A stretch of 64,000 bases of DNA, taken from the IMG/VR virus record IMGVR_UViG_3300019776_000919, positions 105,714-169,713 of that record; one strand, written 5' to 3'. The translations under genes and the position numbers were made by a program. Positions within the stretch are counted from its first letter, which is position 1, and every line of letters starts with the position of its first letter. Shown here one piece after another: positions 5,198-54,600 of this stretch. A model generated the notes under the pieces. The model had not been told where the DNA came from and did no database searches. It was given only the letters and a program-made list of their open reading frames with translations. The stretch is from a virus.

Positions 5198-5473
5198 TTA
5201 GTTTTTTCTATAAGTATGGCTTTGAATCGATTCTTGCTGAGTACAGTTTTTACCGCATGATTGAGTAGACAACGTTTCTGATGTGCCAGTATTGCACTTA
5301 GTATAGTAGTGAAAGTGTCCACTATCTGTGAACCGATAAACAGTGCAGCCTTCATGAGTAAACAAAGTATCTACAAGTACTTCTGGGTTATTGGTTCCGG
5401 TTCTATTAACAGGGGTTTTCTCGCAGCCGGTGAGGAGCAAAGCGACGGCAATTAATGATAAAAGAACATTCAT
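5198..5473 (-). CDS. Small lipoprotein
   Basis: 91 residues with a short hydrophobic signal peptide and a lipobox LLTGC (Cys about residue 17), so the mature protein should be lipid-anchored in the outer or inner membrane. Three further cysteines (EGCTVYRF, KCNTG, SCGKNC) could form disulfides in the periplasm. Phage lipoproteins of this size act as outer-membrane spanins, in superinfection exclusion, or modify the envelope. The placement far from the lysis genes and the cysteine-rich body fit exclusion at least as well as a spanin. Unassigned. Confidence 0.75.
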   Translation of the reverse strand: MNVLLSLIAVALLLTGCEKTPVNRTGTNNPEVLVDTLFTHEGCTVYRFTDSGHFHYYTKCNTGTSETLSTQSCGKNCTQQESIQSHTYRKN

Positions 5474-5501
5474 AATATAAAGTTGAGGTCTAATTAACTA
5501 A

Positions 5502-5521
5502 AGAAGACGGTTAAGTCTTCT
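5502..5521 (-). terminator. Hairpin terminator candidate
   Basis: Perfect seven-base-pair stem AGAAGAC/GTCTTCT with a six-base loop just after the stop of the 5539-5859 gene; a short U-run follows on the minus strand. Confidence 0.5.
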
Positions 5522-5538
5522 GGGGGGGATTGGGTTTA

Positions 5539-5859
5539 TTACCAACCAGCGGGCAATGGGTAACCCGCTTTTTTTGCTGCGTTGCGGGCCTTTTGAAGAG
5601 CCGCATCTTTCAAGGGGGAACCTTGAGGATAGTTGCGAGTCATCATCAACTCCCAAATCGCCGTCATCAGTTCGTCAGAAGCAGAGAACAGCTTGGCAGT
5701 TGCGTGCAACTGGTCAAGGTTTTCAAACACTCGGCTGGGAGTTTCCACCTTGCACTTGAACTTGGGGCAGGGGCGGTCAAAACCGTCCTTACCCATTGCG
5801 TAAACAGTGACCCCAGAAACCTCGAAAGGTTCCTGAACATGTTTCTTTTTAAGATTCAT
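5539..5859 (-). CDS. Hypothetical protein
   Basis: 106 residues from ATG at 5857-5859. An N-terminal beta-rich part (FEVSGVTVYAMGKDG) leads to a helical C-terminus rich in Ala/Lys (AALQKARNAAKKAG). GC content is clearly higher than in the flanking lipoprotein gene and codons favour G/C in the third position. No family recognised. A hairpin terminator follows. Confidence 0.75.
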   Translation of the reverse strand: MNLKKKHVQEPFEVSGVTVYAMGKDGFDRPCPKFKCKVETPSRVFENLDQLHATAKLFSASDELMTAIWELMMTRNYPQGSPLKDAALQKARNAAKKAGYPLPAGW

Positions 5860-37657: not shown

Positions 37658-37687
37658 AAAAAAAGCCTAGCTAGTCTAGGCTTTTTT
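37658..37687. terminator. Bidirectional terminator after the capsid gene
   Basis: Stem AAAAAGCCTAG/CTAGGCTTTTT with a five-base loop and A/T runs on both sides. It ends both the capsid unit and the leftward homing-endonuclease unit. Confidence 0.88.
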
Positions 37688-37694: not shown

Positions 37695-39194
37695 TCATTT
37701 CAAAATTAAAACCCAGCGATCTTGACCGCAATCTTTGATTTTGAAATAACCATTTTTGTACATAATTTCAGATTCAGTCATTTCTTTCGGATATTTTTCT
37801 TTAAAGATATCTTCTAGCTTATGGCGTTGAAATGAAACTCTATTGAAACGTCTTTGACCCTTGCACCAAAAGTATCCAGGCTGACTGGAGCTAGAATAAG
37901 CAAAACCATTTTTCCAGTATACACCTCCAATACTCCATCTTCTATCGGAATAAGATACTATTCTTTTAGGGTTTTGATTTCTAATGAAGTGTTTAAGTAA
38001 CTTAGAAAATCCACCTATTACTGAAGTACTGGTTGAATACCTAAGCAGTTCATAACAATCTTCTTCTTGGTCTTCAAATCTAAACTTAGAAAAAGTCATG
38101 CATCCCACGAGATTATTTTCGTAGAATAGTCCGTACCTGAACGAAGAAGAATATGCATGCCCTTGAATATGATTGTTCGATTCAAACTCTTTAACAACTT
38201 GATTAGTGAGTTGTTTTATTTCACATTTTCTCGCAAAGACTTTCTTTGTCGAAGTTAGTATAGAACGGAGTTTGTTTTTGATAATGTCTTGTTTTTCAAG
38301 CCACTCATCTTCTAATACATGGATTATTCTGATCCCTGCTTTTAAATAAGATTCTGTTTTTTCAAACAAAGAATTTGAAGATGCCATGGCCCCTTCAAAC
38401 TTATCCCATTTAGAAGAAGGATCTCTGTGGAAGAATAATCCATTATATTCTATACCCAGGCTCAGTGAAGGAATGTATATATCCAATTCCATTTTTAAGC
38501 CTTCTACTGGTTTTACTCTACTAATAGCATCTGGCCTCAGGCCCTTTATAAATTCGAAGATTTCCAGCTCCGGACTGGATTTTCTAGTCAAAGAACAATG
38601 AGAGCATCTTTTACCGCTTAGGTAGTCCCCGGGCCTAATCATATAGGATCCGTGAACTTTACAATTAATTTCCGATAGTGTTTTACTGCTTACGTACTTT
38701 GTATTTTCAAAAGTATCGAGGCCAATATGAACAGAAGAAGCTTTTTCGATAAAATCATTGATGTCATCTGCTTGATCTTTAGCTCGTTTTTTAATGTTAC
38801 ATTTCGAGCAAAGAAATCTTCTTTTTTTTGAGATTACAGAAATTGGTTGCGTAGAAAAATCACCGTGTTCCTTACATGTAATATTTACGTATGTATGGGA
38901 ATCTACGTATGACACTTTGCTATAGCTACAATTCATCCAAGTATCCGGATAAATCTGTTTAATTTCTTCTATAAATGACTCGGTATTTCTCTTAGCACTT
39001 ATAGCGCATTGCCCGCAAGCAATACCATTTTTCCTAGTTACGTTTTTAAACGTACGAGTAACTTCGCCATGACGGGGGCAAATTACTATTGATTCGGAGT
39101 ACGACCCGTTATATGTAAACTTTGAGAAGTCATATTCAGGCCACATAGCCTTCATTTTTGAAATGGCTTCTTCGGGTTTTATTTTTATAGGCAT
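37695..39194 (-). CDS. Homing endonuclease-like protein (Hef/VSR type)
   Basis: 499 residues. The N-terminal third has three repeats of a zinc-binding module: CPRHGEV...CGQC, CKEHGDF...CSKC and CKVHGSY...CSHC. A central part (about 205-310) resembles a VSR/PD-(D/E)xK-type nuclease: ELDIYIPSLSLGIEYNG then EYNGLFFH. The C-terminal half (SYSDRRWSIGGVYWKNGF...KGQRRFNRVSFQRHKL) is the type found in phage Hef-like homing endonucleases. These enzymes cut specific DNA and spread their own gene. It is a free-standing gene inserted between the capsid gene and the paralog array. Target site unknown. Confidence 0.75.
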   Translation of the reverse strand: MPIKIKPEEAISKMKAMWPEYDFSKFTYNGSYSESIVICPRHGEVTRTFKNVTRKNGIACGQCAISAKRNTESFIEEIKQIYPDTWMNCSYSKVSYVDSHTYVNITCKEHGDFSTQPISVISKKRRFLCSKCNIKKRAKDQADDINDFIEKASSVHIGLDTFENTKYVSSKTLSEINCKVHGSYMIRPGDYLSGKRCSHCSLTRKSSPELEIFEFIKGLRPDAISRVKPVEGLKMELDIYIPSLSLGIEYNGLFFHRDPSSKWDKFEGAMASSNSLFEKTESYLKAGIRIIHVLEDEWLEKQDIIKNKLRSILTSTKKVFARKCEIKQLTNQVVKEFESNNHIQGHAYSSSFRYGLFYENNLVGCMTFSKFRFEDQEEDCYELLRYSTSTSVIGGFSKLLKHFIRNQNPKRIVSYSDRRWSIGGVYWKNGFAYSSSSQPGYFWCKGQRRFNRVSFQRHKLEDIFKEKYPKEMTESEIMYKNGYFKIKDCGQDRWVLILK

Positions 39195-39213: not shown

Positions 39214-39462
39214 TTAATCCGGAATTTTTTCAGTATTTACAGTAACATTATCTGGATTAATAATTTCCAAATCACATACGTGGAGACAAACAATATCCCC
39301 TTTGTTGAATGCGCCGACTTTTTCTTCTGCCCTGGCCCTTACAAACCAAGTTCCTAAATCTTGTATTACCGTAAATTTCTTATTAGTCCAATAAGAAAAC
39401 ATTGTGTTCGTATATTTGACTAGAGTTCCAGGCTCGAACTTAGGCATTAAATCTTCATTCAT
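39214..39462 (-). CDS. Array member a: SH3/KOW-like mini-protein without QLELF tail
   Basis: 82 residues, last gene of the array. The body fits the family (KFEPGTLVKY...KKFTVIQDLG) but the C-terminus is NVTVNTEKIPD instead of QLELF. Its stop is 20 bases before the homing endonuclease start, so the tail may have been lost when that gene inserted. Start overlaps gene b. Confidence 0.7.
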   Translation of the reverse strand: MNEDLMPKFEPGTLVKYTNTMFSYWTNKKFTVIQDLGTWFVRARAEEKVGAFNKGDIVCLHVCDLEIINPDNVTVNTEKIPD

Positions 39463-39682
39463 TAAACAGCTCCATTTGAAGTTTTTCTTTTTTCTTTACA
39501 GGTTCGAATCTATACTCATAGTAGTTTGCAATTGATCCACTCTCTGACTCACACTTATATAGACACCTTCCTGGATAAGAAGTTCTGCTCAATCTTTTCA
39601 GTACTTTAAAGGTTTTACCGATTAGTTCAGTATCGCCTTTTACATAGACAACCAAGTCCCCAACATTAAATTTAAAAGACAT
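39455..39682 (-). CDS. Array member b: SH3/KOW-like, tail LQMELFNE
   Basis: 75 residues. Very similar to member c at the N-terminus (MSFKFNVGDLVVYV against MSFKFKVGDLVTYV) and to its Lys-rich linker, so a recent duplicate. The tail is LQMELFNE, with Met replacing Leu at position two of the pentapeptide. Its start shares one base with the stop of c (TAATG). Confidence 0.8.
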   Translation of the reverse strand: MSFKFNVGDLVVYVKGDTELIGKTFKVLKRLSRTSYPGRCLYKCESESGSIANYYEYRFEPVKKKEKLQMELFNE

Positions 39683-39906
39683 TAAAACAATTCCAGTTGA
39701 AGTTTTTCTTTTTTCTTTACGAGTTCAAATCTAGATTCATAGTATTCTAAAAGCTTACCCGTTTCTTCCGATTTGCATCGGTAAAGATTATTGCCTGACA
39801 CAAAGCTTTCTCTTAATTGCCGTATTATTTGGTAAGTCTTACCTATTAAATGTGAGTGGCCATCCACATAGGTAACTAAGTCACCAACTTTGAATTTAAA
39901 CGACAT
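39682..39906 (-). CDS. Array member c: SH3/KOW-like, tail LQLELF
   Basis: 74 residues, ending exactly in KLQLELF. N-terminal strand KFKVGDLVTYV and GKTYQIIRQL fit the family. Near-identical linker to member b (KKEKLQ). Start shares one base with the stop of d. Confidence 0.8.
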   Translation of the reverse strand: MSFKFKVGDLVTYVDGHSHLIGKTYQIIRQLRESFVSGNNLYRCKSEETGKLLEYYESRFELVKKKEKLQLELF

Positions 39907-40136
39907 TAGAATAACTCCAGCTGAACATTGATAGGTCTAATATTTTCCAGATATAACTTTACCATATCACCTTTTTTATAAACGGTATCAGTAATGTCTT
40001 GATTACATACTGCACTTACCGTTTCAAATCCAAAAATAGAATTTGTTTTTATTACGGTAAATTTTTTCAAATGCCAGGTTGGATAATCGGGATTGACAAA
40101 TTGAACTTCATCATTTTCCTTAAAGGTCTTAATCAT
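39906..40136 (-). CDS. Array member d: SH3/KOW-like, tail VQLELF
   Basis: 76 residues ending NVQLELF. Has the typical Trp before the second strand (YPTWHLKKFTVIKTN). Lacks the Lys-rich linker seen in b, c and g; the tail follows the last beta strand directly. Confidence 0.8.
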   Translation of the reverse strand: MIKTFKENDEVQFVNPDYPTWHLKKFTVIKTNSIFGFETVSAVCNQDITDTVYKKGDMVKLYLENIRPINVQLELF

Positions 40137-40365
40137 TGAATAACTCTAATTGACAGCGAGTCTTTTTTTCAATCGCTAATTCCAATTTACTATTACGTAT
40201 ACCAACAAAGACACCTTGTGTATATCTTTCATTAATATCCTCCATACAAACTACCCAAGAAATATCATGCCCGGGATTGGTAACTTTAAATCGTTTATTA
40301 AAAAGTTGCCCTTGGGAATTATCGGTGTATATAACTACATCGTCAATTTTGAACTTATAGGTCAT
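40129..40365 (-). CDS. Array member e: SH3/KOW-like, tail CQLELFND
   Basis: 78 residues ending RCQLELFND. Keeps the CMEDINERY element, the family's equivalent of CLED. Overlaps d by eight bases. Confidence 0.8.
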   Translation of the reverse strand: MTYKFKIDDVVIYTDNSQGQLFNKRFKVTNPGHDISWVVCMEDINERYTQGVFVGIRNSKLELAIEKKTRCQLELFND

Positions 40366-40594
40366 TAAATAATTCCAACTGGAGCCGTTCTTTTCGAGGA
40401 TTACATCGTTCCAAATTAATATTTGCTAGACGCACCGTCATCCCCGCCTTAACCTCAGGGAGGATATCTTCTAAACAAATTAAATCGGAAGTGAGGCCCT
40501 TAGATCGGATAACTCTAAACTTTTTGTCAAACCAGCCTGCGTTTAATTTTGAAACGTATCTAACTATATCGTCTTTGTTAAAGATAGGGTTCAT
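40355..40594 (-). CDS. Array member f: SH3/KOW-like, tail LQLELFNDL
   Basis: 79 residues ending LQLELFNDL. Contains KDDIVRYVSK and WFDKKFRVIRSKG and the CLEDILPEV element. Overlaps e by 11 bases and shares one base with g. Confidence 0.8.
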   Translation of the reverse strand: MNPIFNKDDIVRYVSKLNAGWFDKKFRVIRSKGLTSDLICLEDILPEVKAGMTVRLANINLERCNPRKERLQLELFNDL

Positions 40595-40836
40595 CAGAAT
40601 AGTTCTAATTGACTGCGAATTCTATCCGCCTTATCCGCTTTAAATATTTCTAATCTATCACTAAACAGTCTCACTCTAGAACTCTTTCGATAAACCTCAT
40701 CAATGTCTTCTAGACATATTGCAAGCGTACTTAATTCATCATATTTAATAATTTCAAATGTTTTTTTGTGCCAATTCTTTGCACTTTCAAAATTATATTT
40801 GACTACATCACCAGTTTTAAATTTATGTTTTTTCAA
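40594..40836 (-). CDS. Array member g: SH3/KOW-like, tail SQLELF, TTG start
   Basis: 80 residues if it starts at the TTG at 40834-40836, which overlaps the TGA of member h by TTGA, like the other junctions. A longer frame runs upstream into h, but the homology to the family begins at KKHKFKTGDVVKY. Ends RSQLELF with a Lys/Asp/Arg-rich linker. Confidence 0.7.
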   Translation of the reverse strand: MKKHKFKTGDVVKYNFESAKNWHKKTFEIIKYDELSTLAICLEDIDEVYRKSSRVRLFSDRLEIFKADKADRIRSQLELF

Positions 40837-41063
40837 AATAATTCCAATTGAGGCCACGGTTTCTTTTTCAGATACTGATTCTAAGTATTCATTAAAAAGA
40901 GGTATATGATCCCCTTTTGAAAAAAATTCGCAACGTTTTCTAGGCATTCTACGATAGAAGTTGCCCCCTTAAAGGTAATAACCTTAAAAGTTTTATTGTT
41001 GAAGTATTTGTACTTAGGATTATTGAACTTAACAGTGACACCTTCTGCAAATACTTTTGTCAT
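40833..41063 (-). pseudogene. Array member h: frameshifted, tail PQLELF
   Basis: Starts MTKVFAEGVTVKFNN, nearly the same as member j. After CLENVANFF the frame changes at a run of seven T. The family sequence continues one frame back (KGDHIPLFNEYLES) and then returns near an A-rich stretch to the original frame, ending PQLELF. Two compensating shifts are needed. Either a decaying copy or an error at homopolymers. Confidence 0.6.
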
Positions 41064-41299
41064 TGAAACAGTTCCAGTTGAGTTTTTTTGTTTTTAGATT
41101 CAACTAACTCCAAGAAGGTATGATCGAGAGTCACCAAGGATCCTTGTTTAAAGTATTCACTAACATCTTCTAAACAGATTGATTTTGACATAATATGCCC
41201 CGGCATACAAATCTTAAATTTTTTATCAAACCAATGCTCACAATGCTTAGTTTGCCGAATATATCTAACTACATCACCCTCTTTAAATTTATAGTTCAT
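41060..41299 (-). CDS. Array member i: SH3/KOW-like, tail TQLELFQ
   Basis: 79 residues, tail KTQLELFQ. Contains EGDVVRYI, HWFDKKFKICMPG and CLEDVSEYF. His/Cys-rich loop after the first strand (QTKHCEHWF). Overlaps h by four bases. Confidence 0.8.
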   Translation of the reverse strand: MNYKFKEGDVVRYIRQTKHCEHWFDKKFKICMPGHIMSKSICLEDVSEYFKQGSLVTLDHTFLELVESKNKKTQLELFQ

Positions 41300-41528
41300 T
41301 AAACAGTTCCAGTTGAGGAGAGATTTTTTTATGTTCTATTATCTCCAAATCCTCATTTGCAAGAGTTACAGGGGAGTGTTTTACGTACTTAGAGGTAACA
41401 TCTTCTAGACACCTTACATTGGACGCATAAGGATTAGAGTTAATAATCGTGAATGTTTTATTCAGCCACTCTTTATAATTAGGATTATTGAACTTAACAA
41501 TAACGCCTTCTGCAAATACTTTTGTCAT
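41289..41528 (-). CDS. Array member j: SH3/KOW-like, tail PQLELFNEL
   Basis: 79 residues, opening MTKVFAEGVIVKFNN and ending PQLELFNEL. Its 5' end is almost the same at the DNA level as that of member h (both preceded by similar sequence), so these two are the youngest duplicates. Confidence 0.8.
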   Translation of the reverse strand: MTKVFAEGVIVKFNNPNYKEWLNKTFTIINSNPYASNVRCLEDVTSKYVKHSPVTLANEDLEIIEHKKISPQLELFNEL

Positions 41529-41749
41529 TGAAACAATTCCAATTGAGAGGATTTTCTCGAAACTAATTCTAAGTTCGTAGTCATAAACTTTACCGTTTCA
41601 TTTTTAAGCCAGCTACTCGGAAGATCTTCTAGAGTGGTAACACTCGTAGTGTTAGGATCAGAAGCAACAACTATAAATTGTTTATTGTACCAATCCTCGT
41701 ATTTAATATTGATAAACTTAACAGTATCTCCTTTATAGAACATCTTCAT
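41525..41749 (-). CDS. Array member k: SH3/KOW-like, tail SQLELFQ
   Basis: 74 residues, tail SSQLELFQ, with FYKGDTVKFIN and DWYNKQFIVVAS. CLED is replaced by TLEDLPSSW. Overlaps j by four bases. Confidence 0.8.
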   Translation of the reverse strand: MKMFYKGDTVKFINIKYEDWYNKQFIVVASDPNTTSVTTLEDLPSSWLKNETVKFMTTNLELVSRKSSQLELFQ

Positions 41750-41978
41750 CGAATAACCCCAATTGGAGCGAGGGTTTTTTCTCTTTCACCAGCTCTAAGT
41801 AAAGGTTCAGAGTGCGTGCACTAGCACCTTTTGGGTAAATACTATTAATAAATTCTAAGCACACTAGAGTGGATTTACCATCATCAGAATAGAGCACTTT
41901 AAATTTTTTATTAAACCACTCTGGATATATATTATTCGTAAACCTAACAATATCGTCTTTTTTAAATCTTGGTTGCAT
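41733..41978 (-). CDS. Array member l: SH3/KOW-like, tail LQLGLFDEDVL
   Basis: 81 residues. Tail LQLGLFDEDVL: Gly replaces Glu and a five-residue acidic extension follows. Body has KDDIVRFTN and EWFNKKFKVLYS. Overlaps k by 17 bases. Confidence 0.8.
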   Translation of the reverse strand: MQPRFKKDDIVRFTNNIYPEWFNKKFKVLYSDDGKSTLVCLEFINSIYPKGASARTLNLYLELVKEKKPSLQLGLFDEDVL

Positions 41979-42211
41979 TAAAACAGTTCCAATTGTGGAG
42001 TTGGTTTTTTTCTCTGAGGTACCAGTTCTACATTGCTGATTGAAATGCGGGCTATGCTATCAATAGGGTAACCACTGCTAACAAAATTTAAACACCTAGT
42101 AATACACGTATTATCTTCACAATCAATAATTTGAAATGTTTTATTAAACCAGTTTGGATATGTTTTATTATTAAACCTAACAATATCCCCTTTTGTAAAT
42201 GCTTTGTTCAC
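41978..42211 (-). CDS. Array member m: SH3/KOW-like, GTG start, tail PQLELF
   Basis: 77 residues from a GTG that shares its G with the stop of member n (TAGTG). Body KGDIVRFNNKTYPNWFNKTFQ is typical. Tail PTPQLELF after a Lys/Arg-rich linker. Confidence 0.78.
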   Translation of the reverse strand: MNKAFTKGDIVRFNNKTYPNWFNKTFQIIDCEDNTCITRCLNFVSSGYPIDSIARISISNVELVPQRKKPTPQLELF

Positions 42212-42471
42212 TAAAATAACTCCAGCTGACTTTTAGTAATGAATTCTTGCGAATGTACTAACTCTATATGATTTTCATTGAATAGGATTATAATTGATCC
42301 CTTAAGACGAAAAATATCTATGTTTTCCAGGCATTCTGCCCTAAAGTAATAACTGCCGTTTGTATATTGAAAAACTTTAAGTATCTTGAAAAATTTACCA
42401 TGCCAAGAAACATTGAAATTAACAGCAATATACTTTACAGTATCCCCTGCATTGAATTTAGGTGCCGACAT
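42211..42471 (-). CDS. Array member n: first gene of the paralog array, tail SQLELF
   Basis: 86 residues, ATG at 42469-42471. Family pattern seen here and in the other thirteen: a [KR]F-x-x-GD-x-V-x-[YF] strand, Trp, K-x-F-x-[VI] strand, a C-L-E-D/N element in the middle, L-E near the end, a charged linker and QLELF at the C-terminus. The body looks like an SH3- or KOW-like barrel. QLELF fits the bacterial beta-clamp-binding pentapeptide QL[SD]LF, with Glu for Ser/Asp. If so, each protein would dock on the replication sliding clamp. No biochemical role is known for this family to my knowledge. Overlaps the upstream gene by 14 bases. Confidence 0.82.
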   Translation of the reverse strand: MSAPKFNAGDTVKYIAVNFNVSWHGKFFKILKVFQYTNGSYYFRAECLENIDIFRLKGSIIILFNENHIELVHSQEFITKSQLELF

Positions 42472-43441
42472 CTATGTCAATACCTTCTATCTCTGTAGGT
42501 ATTTGTATTTGAAAACGATTTAAATAACGTTGGAAAATTGGAGCTGAATAGTCCACCATTGTCGAGGATTTTTTCTCAATAGAATCTGTACAAAATCCGA
42601 ATTTTACCCACTCACTATTAGAACTTTTATTGATGATGGAGAACCCTCTACTATCCATATACCGAGAAATCCAATTAGGCACTTCTCGTCTTGTCCACTC
42701 CCCCTTATACCCTTTATTTAGCAAAAAATACAAAGGCAAGACTGGACTATTAAATCCAGATGCAGACTCCAAGGCATTAAATTCCTCTATGATTCCCCCT
42801 CTGCTTGGGCTGATATCGGGGATTAAGCAAGCCTTTTGCTTATACTCATCCGGAAATGAAAAAAAGTCGCATGGATATCCTTGATACGTGACTGCAATAG
42901 TTTCTGAACTGACGCTCGATTGCGTGATATTAACTCCGTGAGAAATACGACTCATAAAGGAGCTACAAGATCCCGATTTAATTTCTGGTATTCTTACATC
43001 TTGCAGGTTAAGTTTGATAAGGTCAGGGTACATTCTGTTAAATAAATTTTGACCAGAATGTTTTTTATTAAATCTAAATTCAAACTCTTCTAAAAACGCT
43101 TTCGCCAAAGCTTGTAGATAAACCTCGTTATTGGTCAAATAACCTATGTAATAGGTTACTGATTCGTACGGTAAAGGTTTAGGTAGGCCCGGTACATCTT
43201 GTACATTAAAAAGACGAAAGTAGTTCTCCTTGCTTAAACTAAGTGGCCAACTACCGGCAGGCGTACGGCCTTTTACCAAATTCCATCTATATTTAATCAC
43301 CAATAACTGCAAGACGCTAACAATAGAAGATCGGAGAATTGTATCCGATAGGTTTCTAGCGCAGTTTACCGGATTGATAGATGTTACATATAAATTAGGC
43401 CTGAGAGGATATTTAGACCATTTTGGGTGGTTGTTATTCAT
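42458..43441 (-). CDS. Hypothetical protein leading into the array
   Basis: 327 residues. The N-terminal part (NCARNLSDTILRSSIVSVLQLLV) and NNEVYLQALAKAFLEEFEFRFNK faintly recall phage proteins of the pyrimidine-dimer-glycosylase-like group, which open with a CA-x-x-L-x-D pattern. This is a weak resemblance and the expected catalytic residues were not confirmed. Directly upstream of array member n with 14 bases overlap, so co-transcribed. Confidence 0.6.
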   Translation of the reverse strand: MNNNHPKWSKYPLRPNLYVTSINPVNCARNLSDTILRSSIVSVLQLLVIKYRWNLVKGRTPAGSWPLSLSKENYFRLFNVQDVPGLPKPLPYESVTYYIGYLTNNEVYLQALAKAFLEEFEFRFNKKHSGQNLFNRMYPDLIKLNLQDVRIPEIKSGSCSSFMSRISHGVNITQSSVSSETIAVTYQGYPCDFFSFPDEYKQKACLIPDISPSRGGIIEEFNALESASGFNSPVLPLYFLLNKGYKGEWTRREVPNWISRYMDSRGFSIINKSSNSEWVKFGFCTDSIEKKSSTMVDYSAPIFQRYLNRFQIQIPTEIEGIDIDVGT

Positions 43442-44531: not shown

Positions 44532-45833
44532 TTAACCTTTGCGGGAACTGGCAAGGTTACCGATACCACGACCATCAAAGGCTTGTACTTCGTAACCCAA
44601 AATGGTTTCAACATTGGCAAGAATTTCACCAACACGGGTCGCATCAAAATCAATGAACTTGCCATCCACCAACATTTGGTAAACGGCTTGGTTGGAAATC
44701 TGATCGGTACAGCTGACCATCACTTTGACACGGGGCCTGTATTTGGTCCCCAGATACTGAAGATCTTGACTGATTCGCTTGCGAAGACCGGCCCAATCCA
44801 AGTGAGCATACCGGATCGTCCCTTGGTATTTGCCCGGGACGTTTGTCCTGTCTTGGCCAAGGGTCCAATAATCGTCACACTCAACCCCATCCTTCGCCAG
44901 AACAGGCCCTGCCCCGTGGCGAGTGATGTAAGGTCGAGTGACGTACAAAACTTCTTCGATGTCGCAGCCTTCCTCGTCGCACGTCTTCACGACGTTCTGA
45001 AGACCCGTATTGCTGCGGGTCAAATGAGGGAAGTATTCGCCACGATTCTGATCAAGGAGCAGCCCTTGAGCGCCTTCGAAGACCACAAGTTCCGATGTGG
45101 GGAAGAACACGTTGGTATTCTTGATTTCATCAGAGCCAGAAGAAACAATTGTGCCCCGAGTTTCACCCAACCGCATCGTCTTCATGAAAGCATACGGATA
45201 CTTCAGGAACTCGGTCAACGCTTTGGAAAGCACCCGATCAGAAGTCCAATAGCCCAAAGGATCAGGGTTCAAGAAGTCGTTCAAACCACCCTCAAGGTGA
45301 AGTTTTCGGATTTGATTGAGGTAGTACCCTTGAATCTCTCCGGTAAACGACACCAGGTACGAGTCGTTCATCAAGTCTTCGGTATGAAGACCTGGAGCTT
45401 GCTTATTCAGCAAACGGGCCACAGTCTCACCAATACCATATCCGACCGAACCGTGGCGTTTGTCGCCACGTCCCATTTCTTTGACTTGGTTCAACGCAAT
45501 GTCCCAGGGGGACACCACAGGGCATTCAGGGTGGACCCGAATCAAGTTCGGGTGAATACCTTTGTCCACCAGATCGTTGCGCTCAGACCAAGCGTAATGA
45601 GGGTTCACCAAAACGTCCTTGGTATACCAGGTATTTCGGCCAAGCAACGTGCCTGATCCGAAGTTCTGATGGACGTGCCGCACGCCGTTCACGGTGACAG
45701 TATGACCCGCTTGAGAACCACCGTTGAAACGGATCACATCTTTGATTGCTTTTTCATTGCACACCTTGGCGACGGTGGCACCCTTGCCTTCATCACCAAA
45801 ATTGGCACCGATAACTACGATAGCTTTTTGCAT
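44532..45833 (-). CDS. purA: Adenylosuccinate synthetase
   Basis: 433 residues (E. coli PurA has 432) if it starts at the ATG at 45831-45833, which has an AAGGA ribosome site; an upstream TTG is also in frame. GANFGDEGKGA (9-19) is the IMP/GTP-binding P-loop with the catalytic Asp at D14, and NGGSQAGHTV (37-46) holds the catalytic His at H44. It makes adenylosuccinate from IMP, aspartate and GTP, the committed step to AMP. Phage PurZ enzymes of the diaminopurine pathway usually replace that Asp, so this is better called PurA-like, although a PurZ0-type enzyme cannot be excluded. GC-rich, with its own promoter (45865-45890) and terminator. Confidence 0.85.
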   Translation of the reverse strand: MQKAIVVIGANFGDEGKGATVAKVCNEKAIKDVIRFNGGSQAGHTVTVNGVRHVHQNFGSGTLLGRNTWYTKDVLVNPHYAWSERNDLVDKGIHPNLIRVHPECPVVSPWDIALNQVKEMGRGDKRHGSVGYGIGETVARLLNKQAPGLHTEDLMNDSYLVSFTGEIQGYYLNQIRKLHLEGGLNDFLNPDPLGYWTSDRVLSKALTEFLKYPYAFMKTMRLGETRGTIVSSGSDEIKNTNVFFPTSELVVFEGAQGLLLDQNRGEYFPHLTRSNTGLQNVVKTCDEEGCDIEEVLYVTRPYITRHGAGPVLAKDGVECDDYWTLGQDRTNVPGKYQGTIRYAHLDWAGLRKRISQDLQYLGTKYRPRVKVMVSCTDQISNQAVYQMLVDGKFIDFDATRVGEILANVETILGYEVQAFDGRGIGNLASSRKG

Positions 45834-45864
45834 GTTCCTTGCCCTCAATAAGGATGGTTGATTA

Positions 45865-45956: not shown

Positions 45957-46889
45957 TTACAGCCGAACCAGACCAGAGGTTGAATTGGCAACCAAGCCGG
46001 TGAGATTGCGGACGGCGTTGCTGACCACGACAGCGGTATCGGATGCCCAGCTCTTGATGACAGATGCCGTGTCTTCACCGGCCACGATTTGCATGGTCGA
46101 AACGATGATTTCCGGCAGCTTCTTGTAGTCCGACACGGGGATTGCACGTTGCCCAAGAACCGATTGCCAGGAATCCTTCACGTTCTTTCCGTCGTACCGC
46201 ATTGCTTGCCCTTCTTCAATGATCATGTGGAAGACGTGGTACTTGTTGGCCAGGTTCTCCAAAAGCTCCTTGTTGGTAGCGACGGGCTCTTGGCGATTGC
46301 CATAAACCCGGATCAAATCTTCAGCGGTCAAGTCCGGCGGACAGCGTTCATCACCGAAGGTGAAAATGAAACCCTTGCGGTTGTCCTTTTCAAACGCATC
46401 GGCTGAGGTGTGGTAGGCCGCAAAGTGCCAGGGCAGGTTGTAGCTTTCAAAGCTATTCCCGCCGCCGCAACCTTCAACCCACAGCTTACCCAGTTGATCG
46501 ACAATTTTCATGTCGGTTTCAAACTGCGAGGCTTGAAGAGGGGCAGTGTCACAGAGCACGTCGCCAATGCCCATGAACATCAGGTGCGGGTCAGAGACAG
46601 GCTTGCGGTCGATGACCTCTTTCAACAGAATGCCGAGACCTTCTTTGGCGATTTCCAAAGCGATGCTGCCCATGCTGCCGGTCACGTCCAGAGCAAAGAT
46701 GCAGGGGGTCGATTTCGGATTGCCGTCCGAGTTGCGAGACTCACGCACCATGAAAGTCTTCGGGTCCAGGTACGGGTCCAAAGACCGGGCTTTGAATGCA
46801 TCCTGGGCCGTAGCAGCCTTGGCGTAGGTTGTTGCTGAAACCGTACGGTATGCGGCAAAGTCGAATGCACTGGTGGAAGTTGATCCCAT
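45957..46889 (-). CDS. von Willebrand A-domain protein
   Basis: 310 residues with an AAGGAAAA ribosome site. The metal-ion-dependent adhesion motif is DVTGSMG (D68, T70, S72), followed by helix and strands FMGIGDVLCD, a Gly-rich GCGGGNSF and GFIFTFGDE. vWA proteins bind partner proteins through a metal ion. In bacterial TerY-like systems vWA genes stand near kinases and phosphatases; here a J-domain/kinase-like gene and a receiver-like gene lie downstream-to-upstream in the same cluster. GC-rich. Function in the phage unknown. Confidence 0.85.
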   Translation of the reverse strand: MGSTSTSAFDFAAYRTVSATTYAKAATAQDAFKARSLDPYLDPKTFMVRESRNSDGNPKSTPCIFALDVTGSMGSIALEIAKEGLGILLKEVIDRKPVSDPHLMFMGIGDVLCDTAPLQASQFETDMKIVDQLGKLWVEGCGGGNSFESYNLPWHFAAYHTSADAFEKDNRKGFIFTFGDERCPPDLTAEDLIRVYGNRQEPVATNKELLENLANKYHVFHMIIEEGQAMRYDGKNVKDSWQSVLGQRAIPVSDYKKLPEIIVSTMQIVAGEDTASVIKSWASDTAVVVSNAVRNLTGLVANSTSGLVRL

Positions 46890-47903: not shown

Positions 47904-48965
47904 TCAATAAACATCGGTTTCGGTAAGAGTCAAAGTTTCCCAACGAGGGGTTCCGTATGAACTCCGCTTAACTTTTTCCCACTCTTTAAAAGCCTCGATA
48001 GCGTCTTCCTGTGCGGGTGATATTGCCCAAGTTATAAATGCATCGGGGATATCGGGATTCAAGCGAAGTTTTACCCCGTGAATGTCCCCTAGCAATTCCC
48101 GGCCCAAAGCCTTGATCATCTCAAGCACATGCTTGATAGAAGCTTTCTTTTCAACCAGTAGGCTCGGACAAATCTTTGCAGTTCTTGCAGGAATAGCTAG
48201 AGGCTTTTCCCCGATGCCTCGACTATACTGCCACCCGCCCTCCAGAATAACCCCGTGGGTTTTCGGGTTTATGAGAATTGTTCCCGGAGAGATATCCAGG
48301 TTCAAAACTTTTCGAATCTGCATCAAGCAAGCCAAGCTATGCAGCCTTGACATAATCCAAACCACATGTTTCGGGTCCAGCTTACGTTTCTCCAAAACGT
48401 GATTCAATGCCAAAGTGGCCCTATCTTTTGGAAGAATGCTGAGCACGCCCCCGTTTTCCAGTACTCGGAATTCCGTCTGCAACCTTGAAGCGATGTACAG
48501 ATTTTCATCCGAAGCCATTTCCGGGGGTAGCGGAGTAGACCAAAATTTCAAGTTTTTCTTGGCTTGTTCAACCAAGTCAAGATTATCTCTGGTAAATTCA
48601 GACCAGACATAATACTTGCCCATGTAACGAATACAAGCCCCGCCTTGATCATCTGATTTCAAAAACGACACTTCTAAGAAGCTGGTGGGCGTCGAAAAAG
48701 ATTTGTAGTTATCTCCCCCCCAAACCCCGGCATTGATGTGCGTTTCCGCCAAATCCTTCAACTGCTTGATGTGCTCGAAAACTTTTGTAGCGAAAACTTT
48801 ATCGTTTTCCGATGCGTGTTTGTCAGGATGCCATTTGCTAGACAACCTCCGCCATACCTGCGTTGTCTGAGATTGAGAATTAGGGAACATCATGTAATAA
48901 AACTTGATGTCGAGTACTTGATTTCCGTTAAGGGAAAGAATTTGTTCCGGAGTCAAAGTCAGCAT
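47904..48965 (-). CDS. J-domain protein with degenerate kinase-like region
   Basis: 353 residues. Residues about 20-75 fit a J domain with the HPD tripeptide at 46-48 (WHPDKHASEND), the site that stimulates Hsp70/DnaK ATPase. Further on, MSRLHSLACLMQIRKVLNLD followed by ISPGTILINPKTHGVILEGGW (about 205-245) resembles protein kinase subdomains VIb-VII, with D224 in the catalytic loop but Thr for the Asn and EGG for DFG, so probably a pseudokinase. It would link DnaK recruitment to a phosphate-signalling-like protein. In a leftward cluster with vWA, receiver-like and nucleotidyltransferase genes. Confidence 0.72.
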   Translation of the reverse strand: MLTLTPEQILSLNGNQVLDIKFYYMMFPNSQSQTTQVWRRLSSKWHPDKHASENDKVFATKVFEHIKQLKDLAETHINAGVWGGDNYKSFSTPTSFLEVSFLKSDDQGGACIRYMGKYYVWSEFTRDNLDLVEQAKKNLKFWSTPLPPEMASDENLYIASRLQTEFRVLENGGVLSILPKDRATLALNHVLEKRKLDPKHVVWIMSRLHSLACLMQIRKVLNLDISPGTILINPKTHGVILEGGWQYSRGIGEKPLAIPARTAKICPSLLVEKKASIKHVLEMIKALGRELLGDIHGVKLRLNPDIPDAFITWAISPAQEDAIEAFKEWEKVKRSSYGTPRWETLTLTETDVY

Positions 48966-49066
48966 GATGAATACTGGTTTAAACGCGTTTTAATCGATTT
49001 AAATAAGCAAGAAGCACCGACCCCTTGCTTTTTAATTTGGCTACAGCCCAGGCCCTGTAAAAGGCT

Positions 49067-50131
49067 TTACGGAGATTTGGGAGGAGTCTCTTCCTTTACC
49101 GTTTCTTTGATCAAATCTTCTTGCTGCTTAAAACCCAAATACACCAAGTTCAGACCTGATTGGTAGACAGAGGCCTTACGGATGGTCTTGAGGTAAGGCA
49201 ACTCGGGTTTAGGCTCCAGGGCCGAAGTTGTAGAGGTGTGCGCAGCAAGGATGCAGTTGGTAAGAATCTTTTTGAAGGATTCAGTAAGAATTACGAGCCC
49301 GTCTCTTACTGCAGTGATTGCACTGTCCGGAATTTGCAAAACACCACATCCAGACATGTAGTTTTCGGTCAATTCGGTGAGACTGAAGGTAGTGTCTTCG
49401 CTGATCTGAATCAGCTTAGGTTCTGGAAGAGAGATGTATGCATTTGATTTCACTGCGACTTCTATGGAATCAATTGCAAGTTTGACACCCCCTCGTTTAT
49501 GAAAGTTATCCAAGTGGGAACAGCAAGAAAACCCGAAATAAACGATGTAAATATTCTTTGTTGGGGTGAATTTTCGAACTTGCACTGCAATGGTAAATCC
49601 GCCTCTCGAAGAGGTGTCATACCCAAGGGTCATCAGGCGGGAAATATCCCCGGTTTTTAATGAATTACCAAGTTGATCGAAGAAGTAACTAAACAAGTCC
49701 CCTTGCTCTTCTTTCCGGGGACGCTCTGAGGGATTCCAACTCAAATCCAAGTTGCGGAAATGTTGAATGAGAAACCGGTCTCGATCAGGGTGCGGGGTTA
49801 CCACCTCTTTTACCGGAGTTTTTTTCTTGGCTGTGTAGATGATCCCTGGAGAGAGAATCTCTTCAACCTCTTTGTCGAAGCTAACTTGCAGATTTTCCAT
49901 CAAAGCAAACAGGTTAGCTTGCTCCCCAAGTAGGTAATTTTTACCACTCTCCAGTTTAACAATTCCTGGACGAGAGCCCTTTTCCGGTTGGTGAGCAACC
50001 ACTTTCTTGTAAAGAGTCCCTACTTCTCCCCCGCTTTGGAGAATAAAGATTTCATTGGGGTTCCCGCCTTTAACCCGGTAGAATGCATAGTTACGAAACA
50101 GGCCACGGACGTTTAATTTTTCGATGTTCAT
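49067..50131 (-). CDS. Hypothetical protein
   Basis: 354 residues from ATG at 50129-50131. Mixed alpha/beta with basic linker (KKKTPVKEVV) at about 103. No known motif. It lies directly downstream of the nucleotidyltransferase (two bases apart) and ahead of the J-domain gene, so the three may act together. Confidence 0.72.
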   Translation of the reverse strand: MNIEKLNVRGLFRNYAFYRVKGGNPNEIFILQSGGEVGTLYKKVVAHQPEKGSRPGIVKLESGKNYLLGEQANLFALMENLQVSFDKEVEEILSPGIIYTAKKKTPVKEVVTPHPDRDRFLIQHFRNLDLSWNPSERPRKEEQGDLFSYFFDQLGNSLKTGDISRLMTLGYDTSSRGGFTIAVQVRKFTPTKNIYIVYFGFSCCSHLDNFHKRGGVKLAIDSIEVAVKSNAYISLPEPKLIQISEDTTFSLTELTENYMSGCGVLQIPDSAITAVRDGLVILTESFKKILTNCILAAHTSTTSALEPKPELPYLKTIRKASVYQSGLNLVYLGFKQQEDLIKETVKEETPPKSP

Positions 50132-50133
50132 GA

Positions 50134-51213
50134 TTAAAGAGATTTCAGATGTTGATAGAAATAGAGCGCATTCCTTGCTAGGAATTCGCTTGAATTATTG
50201 CGGGAAGTAGTTCGCAACGTGTCTAGGTTAGGAGATGAATTTATCAACCCTTCTACCTCCGACATTAAATCTTCCGCCATTTTAATGGCAACAACCGGCT
50301 CTATTTTGCCAGTCTTTATATCCAGAAGAATCTTTGATTCTGTCATTGGATACGTGACATATCCTTTCAGCAGGATTTCCTTTGCTTGCAAGACTAATCG
50401 ATAAGAATGCAAGGCATGTTTAGAGTCAAAACCATTTTCTAAAGCTGCATGGGATCTGCCAGCATAGGTCCTGGTTAAAGCTTCCAGCATTCTATATAGA
50501 TTGTCAAAACTGGATTTTTTATTTACGGGCTTTTCATAAACCAAGAAATGGGATTTATCTTCTGCCATCGGTAATTTGTGAGTTACCGCAAGGGAGTTGA
50601 AAAAATCCTCAGGCATTGAGGCATGCACATTAGAAATCGATTTTCTATTGGCATCCATCCACGCCATCATTTCTTTGAATTTCTGAAGTCGAAGCAGTCT
50701 TTTACCAGTCGATTCTAGGCTTTTCTTGGAGAACGCAATCATGGGGGCTAGATCTATGGCAGTAACCGCTTCCCCGAACCTATTCAAAAAATCTATTGTC
50801 AAGGCCCCTTTTTTAAATCTAGAATCGAATTGTTTCGCATCATGTCGACTCTTGATAAAAGACATTGTCTCAATATTTTGAATAATTCCCCGTAAATATC
50901 CGTCCAGTAGAAATGGTAAACTTACAAAAGTTACTTCGATTGTGTTCTTGTCAGACGGTTTAGATATGCCTTCCCCAGTATTCTGAATAGAACCATCTAC
51001 GTTATAACGCCTACTATTAATTTCAGGTATGTTGCCGACTGCGATCTCTTCCAATCGAGGCATATAAACAGCAACAAAGTCCCAGTCACTATCTTCAGTA
51101 TTTGTTCCGTACATTCTGCTACCAAACGGCGTAAGCATAAGAATGTCCGGATGAACTTGATTCAGATTAGTCACCAATAATTCAGTGACTCCCTCTGGGT
51201 TAAATAAAAGCAT
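50134..51213 (-). CDS. Nucleotidyltransferase
   Basis: 359 residues. GSRMYGTNTEDSDWDF (31-46) is the GSxxxG...D-x-D pattern of the polymerase-beta-like nucleotidyltransferase fold (D43, D45 bind metal); it is the type seen in the RlaP/YcgL-like group. It would transfer a nucleotide to RNA, protein or a small molecule. The rest is helical, with conserved-looking AYAGRSHAAL. Has its own promoter (51224-51250). Substrate unknown; related enzymes occur in defence systems, and that is only a possibility here. Confidence 0.8.
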   Translation of the reverse strand: MLLFNPEGVTELLVTNLNQVHPDILMLTPFGSRMYGTNTEDSDWDFVAVYMPRLEEIAVGNIPEINSRRYNVDGSIQNTGEGISKPSDKNTIEVTFVSLPFLLDGYLRGIIQNIETMSFIKSRHDAKQFDSRFKKGALTIDFLNRFGEAVTAIDLAPMIAFSKKSLESTGKRLLRLQKFKEMMAWMDANRKSISNVHASMPEDFFNSLAVTHKLPMAEDKSHFLVYEKPVNKKSSFDNLYRMLEALTRTYAGRSHAALENGFDSKHALHSYRLVLQAKEILLKGYVTYPMTESKILLDIKTGKIEPVVAIKMAEDLMSEVEGLINSSPNLDTLRTTSRNNSSEFLARNALYFYQHLKSL

Positions 51214-51223
51214 AAGCTTCCTT

Positions 51224-51250
51224 TCTATACTTCTTATACCAATATTACAA
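51224..51250 (-). promoter_or_regulatory. Extended -10 promoter
   Basis: Minus strand TTGTAATATTGGTATAAGAAGTATAGA, before the nucleotidyltransferase start. The TTGTAAT block and the GGTATAAG core are both present. Confidence 0.72.
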
Positions 51251-51252
51251 CT

Positions 51253-52170
51253 TTATATTGAATACTGCTTAAATTCAATTAGTTTTCTAAATTGAGTCCA
51301 TCCAAGTGAATTACCAGACATCAAAGTTGGCCGCTCGTAGATAGAAGGGGTAAGCTGATGTTCCATCGGAGACGCATGGAAAGGATTATCCTCATTGTCA
51401 ATATCCATTCCATAAGTCAGTTTTTTAAACAAAGCCAAATCATCTTCTAATGTAGAAGTGACCCCATGATGAGTCTTATAAGAAGTTCTGGCGCAACGAG
51501 ATGCAGACACTGCTAAGGCGTTGTTTAATCCTAGCGTACGAAATTCTTCTTCTGAAACGTAAGGTAGATGCCACTCCCCTTGTTTTAGCTCCTTAGGAGT
51601 CGATTCGTTCAGGGCAGTTTTCACTGCTTGGGTTAAGTATATCATTTCATCTTGGGCATCGGGGTGATCGCGTAAATGGAAAAAGTTTTCAAAAGTAGTA
51701 CCAGTTAGGACCACTTTAATAGTCGAAGCCCATTCGAGTGGGCGTGATGCCCATTGTTTATGTACCCCTAACGCAGTCAATTTTTTACAGCCTTCAGCCA
51801 CTGCGTTAACCATCTCCATCCAAATTCGATTAGCCTCTTGTTGATCCTCTTCTGAAAGATTGTCTTGAGAAGCTCTCATTCCCGGTTGATTTTTACCCCA
51901 ACGAACTGGAAAAACCGGTGCTTTTTGAATAACATCAATTTGCTTCAATGTAGGGATTGCTCGTGAAGAGCTGGCGTTTTTAGAAAATACCCGATGAGTA
52001 TTTAATTCTGCAAGAATGAATCTGGGAAATTCTAATTCTAAAGTAGTAGCTCTATGTAGATGAAGGTTTGTGTAATAGCTGTCTGCGATTACCTTAGCCG
52101 TAATAATTGACGTAGAAGGTAAAACAGGCATCTCAGTTTTTAAAGGGTAATTTGGAAAAGAGTATGGCAT
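51253..52170 (-). CDS. thyX: FAD-dependent thymidylate synthase (ThyX-like)
   Basis: 305 residues. ELNTHRVFSKNASSSRAIP (55-73) matches the ThyX motif R-H-R-x7-S with His59, Arg60 and Ser residues. ThyX makes dTMP from dUMP with FAD and methylene-tetrahydrofolate and supplies thymidine for phage DNA synthesis. A canonical host-type promoter stands just upstream. It is longer than many ThyX proteins (about 220-250), with an extra N-terminal part. Together with adenylosuccinate synthetase it supports phage nucleotide supply. Confidence 0.85.
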   Translation of the reverse strand: MPYSFPNYPLKTEMPVLPSTSIITAKVIADSYYTNLHLHRATTLELEFPRFILAELNTHRVFSKNASSSRAIPTLKQIDVIQKAPVFPVRWGKNQPGMRASQDNLSEEDQQEANRIWMEMVNAVAEGCKKLTALGVHKQWASRPLEWASTIKVVLTGTTFENFFHLRDHPDAQDEMIYLTQAVKTALNESTPKELKQGEWHLPYVSEEEFRTLGLNNALAVSASRCARTSYKTHHGVTSTLEDDLALFKKLTYGMDIDNEDNPFHASPMEHQLTPSIYERPTLMSGNSLGWTQFRKLIEFKQYSI

Positions 52171-52199
52171 ATTGACAATAGTTTTTAGATAAGGTTAAA

Positions 52200-52227
52200 A
52201 TTATACACTCTGCAGTTAAATGTACAA
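52200..52227 (-). promoter_or_regulatory. Sigma70-type promoter for thyX
   Basis: Minus strand TTGTAC (-35), 16-base spacer, TATAAT (-10). It is not of the TGGTATAAG family, and lies 30 bases before the thyX start. Confidence 0.65.
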
Positions 52228-52310
52228 CTTTTTAAATTTCATTAAAGAGATTGACTAAAACAAATATTTACTGTAAGATACAAATACATTAACTATCAAT
52301 ACAAACACAA

Positions 52311-52799
52311 ATGGCAAAATATCTATTTAACACTACAAATTCAATTTATCTTTTTAAGGGGGGTAGTTTGGAAGTGCCGCCGAAGGGTCATAGACCCGTA
52401 TCTGATACGGATTTCAATTCCGGTATTTTTGAAGATGCAATTCTGACCGGGGCTCTTAAAGTCTACAATACTCTAGAGGAAGTTCCTGCTGTTGATACTA
52501 GCTATGAACCTGCGCCGATTGAAAAGGTAAATCAAGGAGTGAATGGGGCTAGTACTGAGGAGCTGAAAGCATTCATTGCTTCAAAGGAAGCTAAGAAACA
52601 AGCTGAAGCGGAAAGACTGCAAGCTGCTATTACCCCGACTGTATCGGAAACAATTCCAGCCCCTACTGTTACTCCGGAACCTGATCCAATCCCTGATGCC
52701 CCGGCTGTCCCGGTTGAACTTAAAATAGAATCAACTGAAACTCCTGTTACTACCCCTAAGAAGACAAAAGCGCCCAAGAACGCTGATGGTAATTCTTAA
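52311..52799 (+). CDS. Hypothetical protein with Pro/Thr-rich tail
   Basis: 162 residues. Starts MAKYLFNTTNSIYLFKGG; beta-rich ~60 residues then a long low-complexity Ala/Pro/Thr/Glu tail ending KKTKAPKNADGNS. No ribosome site. First gene of the second rightward unit, just before a short neck-like protein. MAKYLF is not the KYLxKIA leader. Likely virion or assembly related by position. Confidence 0.72.
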   Translation: MAKYLFNTTNSIYLFKGGSLEVPPKGHRPVSDTDFNSGIFEDAILTGALKVYNTLEEVPAVDTSYEPAPIEKVNQGVNGASTEELKAFIASKEAKKQAEAERLQAAITPTVSETIPAPTVTPEPDPIPDAPAVPVELKIESTETPVTTPKKTKAPKNADGNS

Positions 52800-52818
52800 T
52801 CACTAGACGATTGAATCG

Positions 52819-53256
52819 ATGGCCTCTATACTCACCCCTGAAAAAGTCAGAGAATATATCTCCGATTATCCTGAAAAGAATTTGCTTCTTGATGATAAGG
52901 AATTCTCTGACACGTTCATTGAACTATGCATGGACTTAGCGGTAAGTGAGTATAATTCCATGACCCCGAAGACGGGATTTAATGAAGAAACCTTTCCTTC
53001 TAAATCCCTATTAATGATGGGTACATTATGGCAAATGTTTCTAGGTAGATCGGCCTTAATGGCGAGAAATCAATTGTCCTACTCAGATGGGGGATTGCAA
53101 ATACCCATAGAAGAAAAATATGAACTCTATCTAAGTTTAGCTAATTCTTTTGGGACTCAATTTTCCACAACTGCCGCTAGATTAAAAGCATCTCTTAACA
53201 TGGAGTCGGGTTGGGGTGAAGTACGTAGTGATGAAGCTATGTTCCCTATCTGGTAA
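52819..53256 (+). CDS. Head-tail connector candidate
   Basis: 145 residues, mainly helical, with a compact size typical of adaptor or head-completion proteins that extend the portal. Contains KSLLMMGTLWQMFLGRSAL and ESGWGEVRSDEAMFPIW at the end. It is not recognised by motif; the call rests on length, helicity and place before the tail genes. A bidirectional terminator follows. Confidence 0.5.
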   Translation: MASILTPEKVREYISDYPEKNLLLDDKEFSDTFIELCMDLAVSEYNSMTPKTGFNEETFPSKSLLMMGTLWQMFLGRSALMARNQLSYSDGGLQIPIEEKYELYLSLANSFGTQFSTTAARLKASLNMESGWGEVRSDEAMFPIW

Positions 53257-53275
53257 CTAGTAATTTACTTTTACT

Positions 53276-53304
53276 AAAAAAAGGCCTAATCAAGGCCTTT
53301 TTCT
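53276..53304. terminator. Bidirectional terminator
   Basis: AAGGCCT-AATCA-AGGCCTT stem (53281-53299) flanked by A and T runs. It ends the rightward connector-candidate unit and the leftward AAA+ gene. Confidence 0.88.
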
Positions 53305-53310
53305 TTTGGA

Positions 53311-54600
53311 TTAAAGAAATCCAAGTTTCTGAATCGGAGTATCGATTTTCAAATCTGCTTTGAGATTAGTAATCTCTGCAAGGCTGAAATCTTTTCCATC
53401 CAAAGCGGTATTGTCATGGCCATAGTAATTCTTAGCCACAATTTTTGCCTCATCCCTGGTCAAGCGACGGAAATCTAGGATATCAAAGCAGCGTCCTTTG
53501 CGCAGCAAAGCCGGATCAATACTACTAACGTTCGGCAGGTTAGTACTAAAGATAAGCTTTTTATGCTTGAAAGAGATCATGCCATCCGATGCGTTGAGAA
53601 GTTTTTCCATCAACTTATTTCCTTCTGCCCGTGCTTGCAGCAGATCATCAGCATCTTCAATGATAAGAAGATTGGCGTCGTCCCGGGTAAGGAAAGAAGC
53701 AAAGAAACCATCAGAATTCAGCAGATGACTATCGTAAGTAATAACTGCAGAAGTTCCAGCTGCCTTTACCAGGTGTTTAAGGAAAGTTGTTTTACCGGTC
53801 CCAGGGGATCCCTTCAAAACCAAGACGCATTCATCAGAATCGATAAACGTTTTTGTATAGTTTTGAATAGTGTCTTTCATCCAGGGATATGCCCCGGGAA
53901 TTTCGTCTTTCAAAACAATTGGTAAATGAAACTCTTCCATTTCCCGATAGTTAGGGCCAAACACCCAGTCAACCATGACTTCAGAAGGTCGAAAGTCTTC
54001 TTTTGAAATCCATTCGGTAAACCCGTTAATGGCTTCAACAGTGCCGCTAGCAGTAACGTTTAGATTATTTCCTCGAAATCGAAACTCCAAGTAAACCGAG
54101 CCAGTCGGTCCCGCTTGGTTATTCCAAAACGCGTAAGCATTGTGCGTACCATTCATATAGAACGGGTTAAAACTTTTTGTAATCCAATCAGGAAATACGA
54201 AATTCGATTTGCAAAGTACGTCGTAAGTTTTAGTAACTTGGTTCAACCCCAGATTAATGAACTCCTTCATCCTTTGAAATTCAAAGATTTCGGAGATGCG
54301 ACCTACATTATAGTAGTACTGAGCGTCAGGGCCTACACCCCAGGAATTAGTAGAAGTGGTCATCAAAGTGTTTTTAGCAAAAGGTTTCGGGGGGTATGAG
54401 TCTAAAAAATCTAAACTGTTCAAATTTTCCATCAGCTTACTAGCTTTTAGAAATTCTGACAACGAAGAATTATTAGAGTTAAAGAAACTAGAAAGAGAAT
54501 CTTTTTCTAGTTTTGAAAGAGAATCTGAAGATCGCTGAGAAGGTTTACGGGGCCTACGGGAAGGTCTCTGTCTAAAAATATTCGAATGGTGTTCACTCAT
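53311..54600 (-). CDS. Bcs1-like AAA+ ATPase
   Basis: 429 residues. Walker A GSPGTGKT (about 262-269), Walker B NLLIIEDADDLL, sensor-1 FSTNLPN and arginine finger LRKGRCFDILDF. The pattern fits the Bcs1-like AAA+ family, which pulls or unfolds protein substrates. The N-terminal ~240 residues are not recognised; the first 60 are Ser/Arg-rich. It is the only leftward gene within the tail region, with its own TGGTATAAG-type promoter and a bidirectional terminator. Confidence 0.82.
   Translation of the reverse strand: MSEHHSNIFRQRPSRRPRKPSQRSSDSLSKLEKDSLSSFFNSNNSSLSEFLKASKLMENLNSLDFLDSYPPKPFAKNTLMTTSTNSWGVGPDAQYYYNVGRISEIFEFQRMKEFINLGLNQVTKTYDVLCKSNFVFPDWITKSFNPFYMNGTHNAYAFWNNQAGPTGSVYLEFRFRGNNLNVTASGTVEAINGFTEWISKEDFRPSEVMVDWVFGPNYREMEEFHLPIVLKDEIPGAYPWMKDTIQNYTKTFIDSDECVLVLKGSPGTGKTTFLKHLVKAAGTSAVITYDSHLLNSDGFFASFLTRDDANLLIIEDADDLLQARAEGNKLMEKLLNASDGMISFKHKKLIFSTNLPNVSSIDPALLRKGRCFDILDFRRLTRDEAKIVAKNYYGHDNTALDGKDFSLAEITNLKADLKIDTPIQKLGFL

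Follow-up and report, generated by a model that had tools for sequence, protein, structure and literature searches.

We describe here a tandem array of fourteen small genes in the IMG/VR virus record IMGVR_UViG_3300019776_000919 (169,713 bases, referred to as G000), most of whose products end in a pentapeptide of the type with which bacterial proteins bind the sliding clamp DnaN (beta clamp). The window analyzed is a stretch of 64,000 nucleotides corresponding to bases 105714-169713 of that record, and coordinates are positions in this window unless G000 is named. With somewhat better than even confidence, we regard as the best overall explanation that the tailed mini-proteins occupy the protein-binding pocket of the host clamp and thereby stop or re-programme host replication.

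The array lies on the minus strand at 39214-42471, where the genes follow each other head-to-tail from copy n (starting at 42471) to copy a (ending at 39214). All fourteen match the family profile with E <= 1e-19, and 13 loci encode the motif, which bears out the array as it had been described in a first-pass annotation of the sequence. Neighbouring genes overlap or abut, and at nearly all junctions the next start codon lies 1-2 nucleotides past the Phe codon of the motif. Copy n (42211-42471, 86 amino acids, QLELF end) overlaps the end of a 327-residue gene and is followed by copy m (41978-42211, 77 residues, GTG start, QLELF end), copy l (41733-41978, 81 residues, ending in QLGLF plus DEDVL), copy k (41525-41749, 74 residues, QLELF plus Q), copy j (41289-41528, 79 residues, QLELF plus NEL) and copy i (41060-41299, 79 residues, QLELF plus Q), which served for structure modelling. 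Copy h (40833-41063) is broken by two compensating frameshifts, such that its start and its QLELF codons share a frame with a TAG in between; 12 of the 13 motif loci are hence able to make the motif. Copy g (40594-40836, 80 residues, QLELF end) most likely starts with the TTG at 40836, overlapping the stop of copy h, and the listed open reading frame (ORF) at 40594-40947 (117 residues) is an over-extension of it. The remaining genes are copy f (40355-40594, 79 residues, QLELF plus NDL), copy e (40129-40365, 78 residues, QLELF plus ND), copy d (39906-40136, 76 residues, QLELF end), copy c (39682-39906, 74 residues, QLELF end), copy b (39455-39682, 75 residues, QMELF plus NE) and the final copy a (39214-39462, 82 residues), which carries no motif. 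The closest pair is b and c (58-59% identity), and h and j share 58% identity across 50 residues, supporting the proposed expansion by duplication.

The natural beta-clamp motif has been defined as Q-phi-x-[LM]-[FL], with QLxLF as the strongest form and a tolerant position 3, and may be located C-terminally or internally (PMC11139829). This consensus is fitted by all 12 intact tailed copies (ten with QLELF, one with QMELF in the gene at 39455 and one with QLGLF in the gene at 41733), counting Met as permissible at the aliphatic second position in copy b. Only positions 2 (L to M) and 3 (E to G) show replacements, and these are the two tolerant positions of the motif. The QLGLF of copy l is also the ending of E. 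coli Pol II, whose peptide TLMTGQLGLF binds with a KD of 1.7 uM (PMC11139829). The motif stands 0-5 residues from the C-terminus, any additional residues being translated from the sequence where the next gene starts. The tail is predicted to be flexible, with a predicted local distance difference test (pLDDT) score of 52. By chance, about 8e-5 QLxLF tails would be expected per gene, and a pattern of two motifs in tandem matched four times in the window compared to no match in 100 shuffles.

The tail stands out against the rest of the protein. The heads share a mean identity of 29% (range 18-56%), while identity in the five columns of the tail reaches 93%, compared to a median of 28% for five-column windows. 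Nei-Gojobori counts gave nonsynonymous (pN) and synonymous (pS) differences of 0.029 and 1.12 for the tail and of 0.49 and 0.67 for the body. The 13 motif blocks comprise 12 distinct 15-mers with variation at all seven degenerate sites and only two amino-acid-changing substitutions in total, which argues against recent gene conversion as well as against conservation of the nucleotides alone. The tail is conserved as protein, under strong protein-level constraint.

Two further proteins of the phage end in the same way. An orphan protein of 196 residues with a QLELF end is encoded at G000 69838-70428 (minus strand) between a TOPRIM primase and a PD-(D/E)XK nuclease, and an orphan of 140 residues with a QLEMF end at G000 48655-49077 (minus strand) between ribonucleotide reductase and a Pnkp-like enzyme; about 0.2 loose motif matches would be expected by chance among 249 genes. 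Apart from the tail, neither protein shows meaningful profile similarity to the array. The search for homologs of the 196-residue protein found none, and the single-sequence fold of the 140-residue protein reached a pLDDT of 36. The four relatives G012, G001, Salmonella phage Arash and Vibrio phage D69, with about 890 ORFs between them, have no such tails, the relatives being collinear phages of about 180 kb (capsid protein identity 64% for G012 and 83% for G001), and the 196-residue gene is missing from the syntenic place in G012. A 272-residue ORF ending in QIILF (G000 4814-5632) has the look of a structural protein, and its ending may be due to chance; it was not counted as support. The identification of the QLELF-type ends with the pentapeptide of clamp ligands, as originally put forward, is upheld by the match to the published consensus, the protein-level constraint and the recurrence on two unrelated phage proteins.

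The globular part of the mini-proteins was modelled by AlphaFold2 from the 14-row alignment as five short strands forming an SH3/KOW-like barrel (pLDDT 88 overall, 83-97 in the head). The best Foldseek matches are mostly SH3-like barrels, namely KIN, Spt5 KOW domains, NdhS, PsaE and nitrile hydratase beta, together with many uncharacterised phage proteins; they score at E 0.01-0.1, with none at E <= 0.001. The model thus supports the earlier assignment of an SH3/KOW-like barrel. The likeness to these domains is one of predicted fold, whereas sequence similarity to the heads is not detectable: searches of Pfam, PHROGs, NCBIfam, PADLOC and the PDB gave no match over the curated cut-offs and none shared by members, known KOW and SH3 families included.

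Homologs of the heads were sought more widely. The alignment of the full family nowhere reaches the degree of conservation that a collection scan needs. Of the sub-alignments, neither A2 and A4 against the viral contigs of IMG/VR nor A3 against 84,980 bacterial and archaeal genomes recovered a homolog, these scans being based on short peptide patterns that may miss divergent relatives. In tblastn searches, one member against 50,697 phage records and ten concatenated members against the same phage records plus 72,556 plasmid records yielded weak, non-convincing matches or none, and the family profile found no member in 22 other phage records, whole relatives included, even in the most sensitive check. 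DNA patterns for tandem QL[DE]LF motifs returned only artefacts from the viral and genome collections, with matches that were not at the ends of tandem genes; since these patterns required CAA-TTR as the first codons and a spacing of 195-230 nucleotides, other arrays could be missed. Neither the sequence collections nor the literature searched yielded a comparable array, in which tailed mini-proteins are lined up in tandem and diversified.

As for the clamp that might be bound, the replication genes of the phage point to the host. Neither DnaN nor a gp45-like clamp nor a clamp loader was detected in the phage, and neither its 169.7-kb record nor the relatives that were searched contain a match to PF02916, PF00712 or PF02767. 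The DNA polymerase of the phage belongs to family A (G000 61901-64127, L011:3401-5627, minus strand) and is represented by three ORFs here compared to a single 569-residue ORF in G012, possibly due to an intron, an insertion or frameshifts. Family-A phage replicases such as that of T7 work without a sliding clamp. The lack of a detectable phage clamp or loader together with a polymerase of this family makes host DnaN the likelier target. The first-pass annotation had left open whether host or phage clamp is addressed; its host alternative is thereby favoured over the phage one and, provided that the tails dock on a clamp, we consider it very probable. A coupling to late transcription, which had been suggested by analogy to gp33 and gp55 of phage T4, becomes unlikely, since the phage clamp on which it would depend was not detected.

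Taken together, these observations suggest a mechanism in which each mini-protein would consist of a small SH3/KOW-like barrel, a short flexible linker and a C-terminal QLxLF clamp-binding motif, and in which the set, co-produced from one operon, would dock on the ring of host DnaN, in its protein-binding pocket. This pocket is needed by every clamp user (Pol III, the clamp loader, Pol II and IV, MutS and Hda), and a dozen mini-proteins could displace them, such that host replication would be stopped or re-programmed. Phage DNA would meanwhile be synthesized by the family-A polymerase, which does not necessarily depend on DnaN. Additional contacts, or the delivery of different cargo to the clamp, would probably be the contribution of the divergent heads. 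Overexpression of a QLDLF peptide inhibits the growth of E. coli (PMC11139829). Inhibition by such peptides, combined with the polymerase type of the phage, makes occupation of the clamp pocket the most economical function. Judged by the tails, docking on a clamp is likely; that docked proteins would inhibit by occupancy rather than by recruiting cargo is favoured only slightly. A wider proposal, which we put forward tentatively and at somewhat less than even confidence, is that the peptide serves as a clamp address tag, carried by the tandem, diversified SH3-like effectors and by at least two unrelated proteins in order to load them onto host DnaN or to block it.

Several points weigh against pocket occupation. 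The motif is short, its repetition within the array is in part a matter of common descent, and the terminal copy a is without it. The clamp contact is putative, deduced from the fit of the tail to the published consensus. The record of 169.7 kb may be incomplete, and a phage clamp could lie outside of it or be too divergent for detection. Furthermore, part of the conservation may serve translation, as the motif codons directly precede the next start and a Shine-Dalgarno-like GGR is present in 11 of the 13 motif blocks. A second, translational role of these codons is therefore possible. Carried to its extreme, this would mean that the QLELF codons are kept solely as the translation start region of the following gene, a view in line with the 1-2 nucleotides that separate motif and start at nearly all junctions, with the spacing of 5-8 nucleotides between GGR core and start in most of them, with the missing motif of copy a, which has no family member after it, and with the motif retained by the broken copy h. 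We tested this explanation and judged it insufficient, and hold it to be highly improbable: the nucleotides vary at seven of seven degenerate sites at constant amino acids, the two junctions that have lost GGA (TTA-GAR) still encode Leu-Glu, and Q and F fall outside any Shine-Dalgarno core. Moreover, QLELF and QLEMF end two proteins that are not part of the array, and for the 196-residue gene (stop at 69838 of G000) the next start (69755) lies 83 nucleotides beyond the gene end.

The tail might also be read as protein and yet dock elsewhere than on a sliding clamp, for example on a neighbouring barrel in a self-assembly, on a phage protein or on a host protein with a pocket for hydrophobic C-terminal peptides. 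SH3-like barrels, as which the heads are modelled, can bind peptides, and the clamp contact of the tails is itself a deduction. Self-assembly, however, does not explain the same tail on unrelated proteins, the up to five residues past the Phe argue against pockets that require a free C-terminal Phe, and the substitutions tolerated are those of the clamp motif, leaving this alternative improbable. Closer to our own proposal, the mini-proteins could be adaptors that ride on the host clamp by their tails and whose divergent heads bring phage or host factors for repair, anti-defence or transcription to replicating DNA, for which blocking would not be required. The divergence of the heads beside a fixed tail would fit such adaptors, as would the recurrence of the tail on two proteins of other sequence, which is expected of a modular address tag; there is also a precedent in transposases, which reach the clamp by a C-terminal QLxLF (PMC4549789). 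On the other hand, no head has a known partner, relaxed constraint could equally explain the divergence, and competition among a dozen ligands would arise for the two pockets of each ring. We therefore consider an adaptor function rather unlikely as the principal role, though less so than either of the two preceding alternatives, and retain occupation of the host clamp pocket as the preferred interpretation.

The surroundings of the array suggest a single operon. An intrinsic-terminator-like site at 44516-44493 (minus strand), upstream of a phosphoesterase gene, is the likely 5' limit, and a terminator-like stem at 37659-37687, which is flanked on either side by T/A runs and points towards the capsid gene, marks the 3' end; these two sites suggest that the phosphoesterase, a 152-residue protein, the 327-residue protein (42458-43441, minus strand), the fourteen mini-proteins and an HNH/homing endonuclease (37695-39194, minus strand) are transcribed together. 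A promoter of the array was not identified, promoter-like sites being no commoner than in shuffled sequence. In G001, which also encodes the endonuclease, the same locus consists of the capsid gene, the HNH endonuclease, about 106 nucleotides and then a gene resembling the start of the 327-residue gene (a similar N-terminal stretch recognized by synteny and eye, with no BLAST-level match). The array is absent there, and is thus a gain in this phage or a loss in G001. The array is A+T-rich (GC about 33%, compared to about 45% in the capsid genes), as are both of its neighbours.

Other genes of the phage are noted for completeness. Four tandem paralogs of 115-131 residues (G000 103951-105402, minus strand) lie just before the window and have C-termini without clamp motifs. 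An adenylosuccinate synthetase-like protein (44532-45848, minus strand; PF00709, E 4e-40), also present in G001, is possibly linked to modified-purine DNA. A 310-residue protein (45957-46889, minus strand) resembles a VWA-type domain in one segment (ALDVTGSMGS) but has no Pfam match; it is 62% identical in G001 and has no further match in IMG/VR. A Pnkp-like kinase/phosphatase/ligase (G000 49481-52078, L010:10481-13078, minus strand; PF16542, E 1e-30) adjoins a methyltransferase with a Hen1 N-terminal domain (G000 52075-53376, L010:13075-14376, minus strand; PF22032, E 3e-34); the two make up an RNA repair pair of bacterial type and are conserved in G012. Positions 50134-51213 encode an RlaP-like nucleotidyltransferase (PF10127, E 2e-6).

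Phage clamp inhibitors and C-terminal QLxLF tails on proteins of mobile elements are both already known. Among proteins with a beta-clamp-binding motif (CBM), a short linear motif (SLiM), E. coli Pol II is similar in its flexible C-terminal Q-L-x-L-F, and copy l has its exact motif; known ligands, however, are enzymes and regulators encoded singly, whereas here the motif is carried by 12 small tandem barrels as putative clamp ligands. Gp168 of Staphylococcus phage Twort resembles our proposal in that a phage protein acts on the host clamp to stop replication, but it fills the DNA channel of the clamp and not the CBM pocket (PMC11139829), while the QLxLF tail of the array predicts the latter, and Gp168 is not described as a member of a tandem array with such tails. 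The late-transcription factors gp33 and gp55 of T4 are likewise phage proteins with C-terminal clamp-binding peptides, yet they bind the phage clamp gp45 and RNA polymerase, whereas here no gp45-like clamp or loader was found, a multisubunit RNA polymerase is encoded by the phage itself and the relatives examined lack the array. Insertion sequence transposases offer a parallel, as mobile elements have convergently gained a QLxLF tail at the C-terminus that gives them access to the host clamp (PMC4549789); in contrast, the array proteins have no transposase domain and carry the tail on SH3-like heads in a multicopy array. If our interpretation is true, the array would represent a new route by which a phage seizes host replication, via multicopy, diversified ligands of the pocket common to all clamp users. 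It would also supply ready-made natural ligands for a recognised antibacterial target, and would constitute a natural experiment in which a peptide motif is retained while the attached domain diverges freely.

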